Origin: Lachnospiraceae bacterium
GTDB lineage: Bacteria > Bacillota > Clostridia > Lachnospirales > Lachnospiraceae
DNA length: 35,719 bases
Direction of reading: 5' to 3'
NCBI GenBank assembly: GCA_024687655.1
Contig: JAILEN010000077.1
Coordinates: 1-35,719 of the forward strand
A program made the position numbers and the translations under genes. Position 1 is the stretch's first letter. Every line of letters begins with the position of its first letter. Positions 5,618 to 29,266 of the stretch are shown here, piece after piece. The notes under the pieces were generated by a model that worked only from the letters and a program-made list of their open reading frames with translations, was not told the origin of the DNA and did not search any database.

Positions 5618-5658
5618 GACCGCCTGTCATTATGAGTGTGGTGTAAAGAGATTTCCGT

Positions 5659-5684
5659 GTCATTCTGAGGGTCGCGAAGAATCT
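5659..5684 (+). repeat. Short form of dispersed palindromic repeat (gtcattctgagggtcgcgaagaatct)
   Basis: Matches copies at 26529 and (reverse) 12186; a degenerate copy (gtcattatgagtgtggtg...) begins near 5626. Confidence 0.8.
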
Positions 5685-5699
5685 TTATAGGAGTAACTG

Positions 5700-8102: not shown

Positions 8103-8107
8103 GAAAA

Positions 8108-8130
8108 GATCCTTCGCTGCTTGGGATGAC
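8108..8130 (-). repeat. Short form of dispersed repeat, reverse orientation
   Basis: Reverse complement reads gtcatcccaagcagcgaaggatc. Confidence 0.65.
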
Positions 8131-8190
8131 AGAGCGAAGAGAGGTAGTTAATACCGGCAGATACAGCCGTTATAATAGAAGGGAGATACC

Positions 8191-12184: not shown

Positions 12185-12185
12185 A

Positions 12186-12211
12186 AGATTCTTCGCTACG
12201 CTCAGAATGAC
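12186..12211 (-). repeat. Short form of dispersed repeat, reverse orientation
   Basis: Reverse complement gtcattctgagcgtagcgaagaatct. Confidence 0.8.
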
Positions 12212-12261
12212 ACGGCCACATCAAGGCTTCGATGTGAGCGCAAGTGAATAAAAGCAGGTAT

Positions 12262-23170: not shown

Positions 23171-23190
23171 GTCGCGAAGCGAAGAATCTT
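23171..23190 (+). repeat. Partial short form of dispersed repeat
   Basis: gtcgcgaagcgaagaatctt directly upstream of aaaaggag. Confidence 0.65.
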
Positions 23191-24844: not shown

Positions 24845-25695
24845 GATCCATGATCAACGCCAAACAACTTACACACGAGTTTTTTCGACGTGACGAGGAG
24901 GGCAATGTAGAGGGCATATCCGTTGCATTGGATCACGTGGATCTGGATGTGGAGCCGGGGCAGTTTATCGCCATCCTGGGACACAACGGCTCAGGCAAGT
25001 CCACCCTGGCAAAGCATATCAATGCGCTTTTGACCCCTTCGGAGGGGACCCTCATAGTGGATGGTAAGGACGTGTCCGATCCTGCCAATACTCTTGATAT
25101 CCGTGAGACTGCGGGGATGGTCTTTCAGAACCCCGACAATCAGATCATAGCTACAGTAGTAGAGGAGGACGTGGGCTTCGGACCGGAGAATCTGGGAGTA
25201 CCCACGGATGAGATATGGCAGCGTGTGGAGGCCGCCCTCAGGGGAGTGGGCATGTGGGAGTACCGCAGTCACAGCCCCAACCGACTGTCCGGCGGACAAA
25301 AGCAGAGGGTTGCCATAGCGGGAGTCATGGCCATGGAGCCCAAGTGCATCATTTTGGATGAGCCTACAGCCATGCTGGATCCTGATGGCAGAGCCGAGGT
25401 GATACGTGTGGCCCATGAGCTCAACGAGAAAAAGGGTATCACAGTGATCCTCATCACTCACTATATGGAAGAGGTGGTGGGAGCTGATTATGTATACGTT
25501 ATGGAAAAGGGGCATATCATCATGGACGGTACGCCCACCGAGATCTTTTCCAGGGTGGATGAGCTGATAGCTCACAGACTTACAGTACCCCAGATAACTC
25601 TTTTGGCTCACAAGCTGAAAATGGCAGGGATGGACATTCCCGATGGTATCCTGACACGGGAGGAATTGATAAGAGTTTTATGTCGATTATCTTAG
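24841..25695 (+). CDS. ecfA1: ECF transporter ATPase EcfA1
   Basis: GHNGSGKSTLAKHINALL; VFQNPDNQI; LSGGQKQRVAIAG; ILDEPTAMLD. Confidence 0.93.
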   Translation: MRSMINAKQLTHEFFRRDEEGNVEGISVALDHVDLDVEPGQFIAILGHNGSGKSTLAKHINALLTPSEGTLIVDGKDVSDPANTLDIRETAGMVFQNPDNQIIATVVEEDVGFGPENLGVPTDEIWQRVEAALRGVGMWEYRSHSPNRLSGGQKQRVAIAGVMAMEPKCIILDEPTAMLDPDGRAEVIRVAHELNEKKGITVILITHYMEEVVGADYVYVMEKGHIIMDGTPTEIFSRVDELIAHRLTVPQITLLAHKLKMAGMDIPDGILTREELIRVLCRLS

Positions 25696-26525
25696 ATCAC
25701 GTTACATATACATACAGTGTAGGTACGGCTTATGAGGTCAGGGCCCTGGATGATGTGAGCCTCAAGCTGGATGACGGTGAGTTTATCGGTATCATCGGAC
25801 ATACGGGTTCCGGAAAGTCTACCCTCATTCAGCATTTTAATGGGCTTTTAAAGGCTACTTCCGGTGCCATATATTACAATGGCCAGGATATATATGACAG
25901 GGATTTCGATCTCAAGGGTCTCCGTACGCAGGTGGGTATGGTGTTTCAGTATCCTGAGCATCAGCTATTTGAGACTACGGTTTTTGAGGATGTGAAGTAC
26001 GGACCGAAAAACCAGGGACTGACCGACAAGGAGGCCACCAATCGGGCGTTTGATGCCCTTTCTGCGGTCAATTTTCCCGACGAGTATTTTGACCAGTCAC
26101 CCTTTGAACTTTCCGGGGGACAGAAACGCCGGGCGGCCATAGCGGGAGTGCTGGCCATGGAGCCTGCAGTACTGGTACTGGATGAGCCTACGGCGGGCCT
26201 GGATCCCAAGGGGCAGAGGGACCTTTTGACCCTCATCAAAAGGATGCACAAGGAGACAAACCGGACCATCATCCTGGTATCCCACAGTATGGAGGATGTG
26301 GCGGAGTATGTGGACCGCATCATAGTGATGGACGAGGGCAGGGTATTTTTGGACGGTACTCCGGAAGAGGTTTTTTCACATGTGAAGGAACTGGAGGAAA
26401 GAGGGCTGGCCGTGCCACAGGTGACATATCTCATGGAGGAACTCAGGGCCCGGGGCATCCCGGTGGAGGGACACGCCACCACACTGGAGTCCGCCAAGGA
26501 AGAGATATTGAGATTGTTTAATTAA
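25680..26525 (+). CDS. ecfA2: ECF transporter ATPase EcfA2
   Basis: GHTGSGKSTLIQHFNGLL; VFQYPEHQLFE; LSGGQKRRAAIAG; LDEPTAGLDPKGQ. Confidence 0.93.
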   Translation: MSIILDHVTYTYSVGTAYEVRALDDVSLKLDDGEFIGIIGHTGSGKSTLIQHFNGLLKATSGAIYYNGQDIYDRDFDLKGLRTQVGMVFQYPEHQLFETTVFEDVKYGPKNQGLTDKEATNRAFDALSAVNFPDEYFDQSPFELSGGQKRRAAIAGVLAMEPAVLVLDEPTAGLDPKGQRDLLTLIKRMHKETNRTIILVSHSMEDVAEYVDRIIVMDEGRVFLDGTPEEVFSHVKELEERGLAVPQVTYLMEELRARGIPVEGHATTLESAKEEILRLFN

Positions 26526-26528
26526 TTT

Positions 26529-26554
26529 GTCCTTCTGAGGGTCGCGAAGAATCC
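26529..26554 (+). repeat. Short form of dispersed repeat
   Basis: gtccttctgagggtcgcgaagaatcc. Confidence 0.8.
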
Positions 26555-26555
26555 T

Positions 26556-26643
26556 TTAAAGATCCTTCGCTAGGTTGAAGTCATCTCCGATGACTTCTTC
26601 AGGCTTCTGGCTCTGACAGAAGCTTCACCATGCTCAGGATGAC
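26556..26643 (-). repeat. Long form of dispersed repeat, reverse orientation
   Basis: Exact reverse complement of 27487-27574 over 88 bp. Confidence 0.95.
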
Positions 26644-26657
26644 AGAGGAGTGTATAG

Positions 26658-27458
26658 TTGTTCAGAGAGATCACATTAGGACAATATTATCCCGCAGACT
26701 CGATTTTGCATCGGCTGGATCCCAGGGTCAAGCTTTTCGGGACGCTCATCTACATCATAGTATTATTTGTGGCGTCCGAGCCCATATCCTTTGGAGTGAT
26801 AACTGCGGCTTTGATCTGTATCATCGTCATTTCAAAGGTACCCTTTTCCTATATGACAAAGGGACTTTCGGGCATAGTCATGCTTTTGGTGATCGCGGGA
26901 GTTTTTAATCTGTTCTTGACGCCGGGTATCCCCATTTTCAAACTGGGGCCCCTGACCATATCGGATATCGGACTTAAGAATGCGGCCATCATGGTCATCC
27001 GCATGGTGTACCTCATCGTGGGTACCTCACTTATGACACTGACTACCACCCCCAACCAGCTTACGGACGGGCTGGAGAGGAGCATGCGGCCCATGTCAAA
27101 GATCGGGCTGCCGGTACACGAGATCGCCATGATGATGTCCATTGCGCTTCGATTCATCCCTATTCTGGTGGAGGAGACGGACAAGATCATGAAGGCGCAG
27201 ATGGCCCGGGGTGCCGATTTTGAAACCGGAGGGATCATAAAAAGGGCCAAGGCCATGGTGCCCATCCTGGTGCCGCTTTTTGTATCGGCCTTCCGCAGGG
27301 CGTCGGATCTGGCCATGGCCATGGAGGCCCGGTGCTATCACGGAGGTGAGGGCAGGACCAAGATGAAGCCCCTCACATACACGGCTGCGGATCGTGTGGC
27401 GTATCTTATCATACTTTTATTTTTGGCAGGGATAGTAGCATTGTCGATTTTACTTTAG
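26658..27458 (+). CDS. ecfT: ECF transporter transmembrane protein EcfT
   Basis: Directly follows ecfA1A2; YYPADSILHRLDPRVKL; KAQMARGADFETG and MEARCYHGGEGRTKM coupling motifs; TTG start with GAGGAG RBS. Confidence 0.93.
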   Translation: MFREITLGQYYPADSILHRLDPRVKLFGTLIYIIVLFVASEPISFGVITAALICIIVISKVPFSYMTKGLSGIVMLLVIAGVFNLFLTPGIPIFKLGPLTISDIGLKNAAIMVIRMVYLIVGTSLMTLTTTPNQLTDGLERSMRPMSKIGLPVHEIAMMMSIALRFIPILVEETDKIMKAQMARGADFETGGIIKRAKAMVPILVPLFVSAFRRASDLAMAMEARCYHGGEGRTKMKPLTYTAADRVAYLIILLFLAGIVALSILL

Positions 27459-27486
27459 CAGGGGTCTTTGGTCGATATACCACCAT

Positions 27487-27574
27487 GTCATCCTGAGCAT
27501 GGTGAAGCTTCTGTCAGAGCCAGAAGCCTGAAGAAGTCATCGGAGATGACTTCAACCTAGCGAAGGATCTTTAA
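27487..27574 (+). repeat. Long form of dispersed repeat, forward orientation
   Basis: gtcatcctgagcatggtgaagcttctgtcagagccagaagcctgaagaagtcatcggagatgacttcaacctagcgaaggatctttaa; abuts the RBS of the 27583 ORF. Confidence 0.95.
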
Positions 27575-27582
27575 GGAGTTTT

Positions 27583-28287
27583 ATGTACGAAGTAAAAAGC
27601 AGAGTGGGACTGGATGCGGTAGGCCCGAGCGGACTCATAGGAGCTGATGCGATCCTGCGGGAGATGGTCAACTGTGCCGTCTACCAGACCCAGGACTGTG
27701 TTTATGATATCAATGAGATGGCAAAAAAGCACCGTGGGTGGTTTGTGATCTCATGGCAGGTGAGGATACATGGCCGGATGAAGCTGGCAGACGCCCTTAC
27801 GATTCAGACCTTTCCCTATGACTTTATGGGGTTTACCGGAAAGAGGCATTTTAAGATCCTGTCCGATTCCGGAGAGCTTCTGGTGAGCGCCAATTCCCTT
27901 TGGACCTGGATGGATATAGAAAAGGTACGGCCGGTCCGTATACCGGCAGACTTTCTGGATCTTTTTGGACAGGACGGGCCGCCTGAGGAGGAGTGGCCGG
28001 GACGGAAGCTTATGATCCCCGAGGATATGACGGAAAGATACCGCTTTACGGTATCCCCCATGTTTTTGGATACCAATGGTCATATGAACAATTCCTATTA
28101 TGTCAGTGCGGCGCAAAAGTGTCTGCCTGACGGGATGGATCCCAGGGCCTTTTATGTGGAGTACAGGAAGCAGGCCCTGCCGGATGCTGAGGTGGTGGCC
28201 TGTTCATCTGCACCCGGTGATGAGATGACGGTGGTCATGTACGATACGGATGGGGAAGTATATTCAGTGGTGAGATTTGAATGTTAG
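27583..28287 (+). CDS. Acyl-ACP thioesterase-like protein
   Basis: Hotdog-fold sequence; WVISW-type strand, FLDTNGHMNNSYYVSAAQ motif. Confidence 0.88.
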   Translation: MYEVKSRVGLDAVGPSGLIGADAILREMVNCAVYQTQDCVYDINEMAKKHRGWFVISWQVRIHGRMKLADALTIQTFPYDFMGFTGKRHFKILSDSGELLVSANSLWTWMDIEKVRPVRIPADFLDLFGQDGPPEEEWPGRKLMIPEDMTERYRFTVSPMFLDTNGHMNNSYYVSAAQKCLPDGMDPRAFYVEYRKQALPDAEVVACSSAPGDEMTVVMYDTDGEVYSVVRFEC

Positions 28288-29120: not shown

Positions 29121-29162
29121 CCCGGTCGGAGTATTCCCCGTTGCTCTGTGGCGGACTTGATT

Positions 29163-29246
29163 GTCATCCTGAGCGTGGTGAAGCTTCTGTCAGAGCCAGA
29201 AGCCTGAAGAAGTCATCGGAGATGACTTCAACCTAGCGAAGGATCT
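29163..29246 (+). repeat. Long form of dispersed repeat, forward orientation
   Basis: Same 84-bp core as 27487-27570 with one visible substitution (gagcGtgg vs gagcAtgg); upstream of ridA RBS. Confidence 0.95.
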
Positions 29247-29266
29247 TATATAAGGAGGAAAACAAA

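Follow-up and report, generated by a model that had tools for sequence, protein, structure and literature searches.

The inverted repeat around ecfT in a Lachnospiraceae genome: a probable pair of insertions of a dispersed REP-like hairpin element

We examined an 88-base inverted repeat that encloses ecfT, the gene for the T component of an ECF transporter, in a Lachnospiraceae bacterium. The repeat very probably (roughly nine chances in ten) represents two independent, oppositely oriented insertions of a single dispersed REP-type hairpin, which happen to flank this gene. Because the element is scattered by dozens through the genome and its core is identical in many phyla, we read the repeat as a chance pair of insertions and not as a device of ecfT. 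Two repeat insertions account for the arrangement and remove the supposed ecfT switch, so that the finding as originally posed comes down to an ordinary side effect of a repeat family. What is of moderate interest is the family, chiefly for its long form and for the identity of its core across phyla.

The inverted repeat and its neighborhood

The window, the whole stretch of DNA analyzed here, is a contig of 35,719 nucleotides. Direct comparison of the sequence upheld the preliminary description of the repeat: positions 26556-26643 are the exact reverse complement of 27487-27574 over 88 bases, ecfT is the single gene between them (TTG start at 26658, stop at 27458, with a CbiQ match), and its start region, AGAGGAG/TTG, adjoins one of the arms. 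A match of 88 bases cannot be chance sequence. A repeat finder reports the arms as 100 nt long at 95% identity, and they form the sole inverted repeat of at least 20 nt within 25.5-28.7 kb. The genes of the neighborhood were confirmed as ecfA1, ecfA2, ecfT, and genes for an acyl-ACP thioesterase, a CvfB-like protein and a RidA-family protein. The window contains eight members of the repeat family, degenerate ones included (Table 1), and one of these, immediately beside the first arm, was absent from the preliminary description.

Table 1. Repeat elements and neighboring genes in the window
Feature	Position	Strand	Remarks
Short-form element	5658..5685	+	
Short-form element	8106..8131	-	2 mismatches in tag half; directly past stop codon
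Short-form element	12185..12212	-	exact 25-mer core
Degenerate element	23173..23190	+	tail half alone, beside AAAAGGAG
ecfA2	25680..26525	+	last codons unlike those of congeners at insertion point
Degenerate short-form element GTCCTTCTGAGGGTCGCGAAGAATCC	26529..26554	+	tail-to-tail with 26556 arm; 7 congeners without it at ecfA2/ecfT
Long-form element, first arm	26556..26644	-	tag TGTC beside ecfT Shine-Dalgarno sequence
ecfT (ECF transporter T component)	26658..27458	+	Pfam CbiQ, 2.2e-51; TTG start, ATG in congeners
Long-form element, second arm	27486..27574	+	tail runs into AAGGAG of thioesterase gene
Acyl-ACP thioesterase-like gene	27583..28287	+	gene identity confirmed by analysis
Third long-form element	29162..29247	+	99% identity, 1.6 kb downstream; CvfB-like/RidA-family junction; tail into AAGGAGG

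A dispersed family in the same genome

The genome that holds the window (G000; 2.65 Mb in 216 contigs, 82% complete) contains many further copies of the arm. With the 88-nt arm as query, at least 40 scored matches from 175 candidates were obtained at 91-100% identity, and the matches to the long copy are spread over both strands and many contigs; one falls at 29163-29247 of the window. A short form has the same ends and an exact 25-mer core, TCATYCTGAGCGNAGCGAAGRATCT, of which there are about 120 exact copies in this genome. The family copies described below were read from 38 genome stretches chosen around known copies.

The perfect identity of the two arms needs no special cause, because 13 other identical pairs occur among the sampled copies, each with its members on different contigs, and copies on the same contig are no more alike than others. 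Local gene conversion was considered as a source of the 100% identity and rejected; identity is 0.920 for same-contig copies versus 0.914 for the others, a value reached in 500 of 2000 permutations. Enclosure of one gene by oppositely oriented members is likewise found elsewhere, with 10 other single genes so enclosed in 163 kb of sampled sequence, two of them by long forms on both sides (L021 and L030). The proposal that the repeat is a device belonging to ecfT was thus not borne out: the unit stands at dozens of other junctions, encloses these 10 other genes, and has arms that fold alone.

Structure of the element

The element consists of two constant ends, TGTCATYCTGAG and CGAAGRATCTT, separated in the 38 genome stretches by 5 to approximately 63 nt, and its members fall mainly into length classes of 28, 32-34 and 86 nt. 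The short form is a 27-nt hairpin, TGTCATYCTGAGCGNAGCGAAGRATCT, with the layout TGTC-AT(Y)CT-GA-GC-GNA-GC-GA-AG(R)AT-CT. Its stem starts with AT/AT, has standard pairs at seven of nine positions and G-A/A-G at the remaining two, and is closed by a GNA loop of 3 nt. In the long form the loop carries an insert of about 60 nt with two further hairpins, so that the fold comprises an outer stem with the G-A/A-G double mismatch and two inner hairpins. The local folds of the two ecfT arms have energies of -31.6 and -32.6 kcal/mol (z -3.2 and -3.7).

The stem shows covariation. Pairing is kept in 95.9% of cells among 38 distinct copies, and changes on both sides of a pair occur in 19 cells compared with 4.5 in shuffles; three pairs are compensated. 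This signal is lost when the partner is slid by 1-3 columns. Across phyla the variable Y-R pair of the core is T-A in 70 cases, C-G in 64 and another combination in three. When the two strands of the short unit are folded with DNA parameters, under an energy model that does not treat paired G-A mismatches specially, they differ by just 0.2 kcal/mol.

The borders are sharp. On the tag side, across phyla, position -1 is G in 131 of 133 sequences and position -2 is T (109) or C (19) in 128 of 133, followed by TC. The tail is CT, followed by C in 62 of 133 sequences across phyla, and is CTT in this genome. Past these borders no conservation was found among the 133 sequences, and the flanks are unrelated.

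Placement relative to genes

The element lies between genes: of 50 long copies, three overlap a predicted gene by more than 20 nt and the other 47 do not. On the tail side, a same-strand start codon mostly follows at 9-25 nt, with a Shine-Dalgarno-like sequence in 24 of 31 cases, or else an opposing gene has its stop codon mostly at -4 to +4 nt. The distance from genes on the tag side is variable. Among adjacent members, 19 pairs are head-to-head and one is tail-to-tail; three head-to-tail cases are overlapping detections. A further tail-to-tail pair, formed by the degenerate member at 26529-26554 and the arm before ecfT, falls outside this stricter count. The sample behind these dimer and position counts was selected around long copies, and its genes were called by a simple script.

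Corresponding sites in congeners

No long form was found in 40 relatives, including seven congeners. The nearest congener (G006) contains at least 55 exact short cores, and none were found in the six other congeners. At the ecfA2/ecfT junction all seven congeners are free of the element, and the two genes overlap or nearly abut; in G006 they overlap (ATGTTTAG). The next junction differs. Between ecfT and the thioesterase gene, G006 carries a head-to-head pair of short elements, the forward member of which matches the long element of the window in position and direction, and another congener (G007) has no element there. The third long element of the window is also missing from the corresponding junction of G007, which is about 54 nt long. 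As the congener sites differ between the ecfA2/ecfT junction and the next one, the two arms therefore probably arrived by separate events.

The end of ecfA2 is altered in the window and ecfT starts with TTG where the congeners have ATG, and therefore the insertion changed this junction. It ended the tight ecfA2-ecfT junction seen in the congeners, and a comparison with G007 suggests that the Shine-Dalgarno sequence beside the arm is the old one. The gene 3' of ecfT is truA, by translation, in four congeners (G001-G004) and the acyl-ACP thioesterase gene in the window, G006 and G007.

Distribution of the core across bacteria

The exact 25-mer TCATYCTGAGCGNAGCGAAGRATCT was identified in named genomes of approximately 18 phyla (L047-L163, L172 onward), with up to 188 copies per genome, the latter in a Desulfatirhabdium assembly. 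Isolates that carry it include Calothrix sp. PCC 7103 (84 copies), Legionella massiliensis (82), Mucilaginibacter sp. L196 (79), Helicobacter marmotae (44), Silvibacterium bohemicum (13) and Lachnospiraceae bacterium AD3010 (141). A reversed control pattern has no copies in the counted genomes. Viral contigs contain the 25-mer too, in 116 stretches.

The distribution is patchy across genera, and the 25-mer is absent from most close relatives. In the bacterial family to which the window belongs, two of 299 genomes are loaded with the element, four have one copy and 293 have none. A genome from another genus of the same family (G074) has 87 exact cores. Papers searched by sequence on both strands for descriptions of the unit gave only unrelated primer matches, which does not prove that no description exists.

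Comparison with known repeats

The closest known kind is the CGTC-tagged REPs, as far as the published description of these extends (Di Nocera et al. 2013, PMC3733652). According to that description, they have an unpaired (C/T)GTC tag, a stem of 8-9 bp starting with AT, a loop of 4-5 nt and a short tail that is mostly CCA; they are intergenic, occur in many copies and are patchy among species, their head-to-head dimers predominate while tail-to-tail dimers are rare and head-to-tail ones negligible, and they have no dedicated transposase. Going by these features, our element resembles them in its unpaired (T/C)GTC tag at one end (133 sequences), the intergenic location, the many copies, the patchy occurrence among species and the predominance of head-to-head dimers (19 to 1). 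For the stem and the transposase the agreement is less clear-cut: the AT start is present, but seven of the nine stem positions are standard pairs, and PF01797, the one transposase family tested here, shows no consistent association. However, set against the same description, it differs in the G-A/A-G double mismatch of its stem, in a loop that is either 3 nt (short form) or an insert of about 60 nt (long form), in a tail of CT(C/T), in the length of some members (86-88 nt) and in a range of phyla much wider than the five given for CGTC-tagged REPs. Because loop length and tail differ in this comparison by description, we do not claim membership.

GTAG REPs, REPINs and their RAYTs (PMC3116915, PMC2817692) share with the element the character of short palindromes in inverted pairs that are non-autonomous and abundant between genes, but the tag here is (T/C)GTC and not GTAG. 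Unlike the REPIN-RAYT system, there is no consistent Y1 transposase, and no RAYT (PF01797) match was found in G000, a genome that is 82% complete. PF01797 is absent from seven of 22 loaded genomes (G000 and six others) and present in three of six unloaded congeners; a Y1 transposase as driver was rejected for want of a consistent association with the element. MITEs are similar in being small, dispersed, non-coding, structured and missing from the same site in relatives, but a single unit of our element does not end in long terminal inverted repeats; as to target-site duplication, the congener junctions are too diverged to define a target or any such duplication.

The tip of the short form, GC-GNA-GC, corresponds to GCGNAGC, the GNA generalization of the GCGAAGC DNA mini-hairpin. 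That mini-hairpin is unusually stable and is used in DNA aptamers (PMC4686876), but it is a laboratory motif and not a genomic repeat family.

Alternative explanations

The preliminary description had held that the arms could form an 88-bp duplex in mRNA with ecfT in its loop. Such a duplex is computable: all 88 bases of the arms are paired in the minimum-energy fold of 26500-27640, which has -482.7 kcal/mol compared with -353.8 kcal/mol when pairs span at most 150 nt, and the arm-arm duplex alone has -180 kcal/mol. With the Shine-Dalgarno sequence adjoining the arm, one could picture RNase III cutting the duplex and so setting the ratio of EcfT to EcfA. However, each arm folds strongly by itself, and these local folds compete with the duplex; the first arm would presumably have been synthesized and have adopted its fold by the time the second is transcribed. 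At dozens of sites the same unit stands with no identical partner nearby, and no congener has an element at the ecfA2/ecfT junction, so we consider this regulation very unlikely. A reversible inversion of ecfT, for which 88 bp of perfect inverted identity could in general serve homologous recombination, found no support and is extremely improbable. The orientation of ecfT relative to ecfA2 is the same in seven of seven congeners, the analysis found no recombinase associated with the family, and inversion would silence a needed subunit. Nor does the identity of the arms point to a switch, because identical copies exist on other contigs too.

The elements might instead be selected RNA elements, such as leader hairpins, attenuators or mRNA stabilizers, retained ahead of Shine-Dalgarno sequences and behind stop codons because they influence expression. 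In most copies the tail is flush with one or the other, the structure is conserved with compensatory changes, and the fixed place of the tail at Shine-Dalgarno sequences could reflect a selected role in RNA leaders. Yet orthologous junctions in congeners lack the element, which lies beside unrelated genes in both orientations and is patchy across genera. A scan for terminator-like sites, for which a GC-rich hairpin followed by a T run is expected, called none at 26529-26644, 27486-27574 or 29162-29247, and no Rfam covariance model matched within 25-29 kb at E up to 1. Selection of this kind is quite unlikely in our view. That a short-read assembler created or equalized the arms has hardly any likelihood: the assembly is fragmented (216 contigs), identical repeats resist resolution, and tandem forms sit at contig ends or close to them, but the two arms are flanked by different sequences, copies at dozens of other loci carry substitutions of their own, and the gene order agrees with that of the congeners.

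Spread of the element

If the repeat is a pair of independent insertions, the element may spread as a single-stranded DNA hairpin moved by an enzyme acting in trans, and it would be tolerated only between genes. It would then be a passenger, and its effects on ecfT (the end of the tight ecfA2-ecfT junction, a structured leader and the TTG start) would be incidental. More tentatively, and with considerable doubt, TGTCATYCTGAGCGNAGCGAAGRATCT can be pictured as one horizontally spreading DNA parasite of unchanged sequence across phyla. It would multiply in bursts within individual lineages and depend for its movement on some common function of host or phage, not on its own transposase, and the two-hairpin long form would have grown in this genome.

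An exact 25-mer with a covarying pair thus recurs tens to hundreds of times per genome in many phyla and is missing from near relatives, which bears on how short CGTC-type repeats keep their identity and multiply without their own transposase. Comparison of G000 and G006 with the element-free congeners makes the question of multiplication testable.

Two further arrangements were observed among the copies. Tandem repetition of the long form's inner part, with a 58-nt period, occurs at L029:2709-2869 (2.8 copies) and L019:26-142 (2 copies), at or near contig ends. Several head-to-head pairs (L030:1610-1690, L030:2690-2730, L042:3590-3635 and L046:1568-1610) have the same spacer, which contains another hairpin, ATCTCATTGTTTTTATYCTAAAAACAATGAG, and gives the impression that a composite unit was copied.
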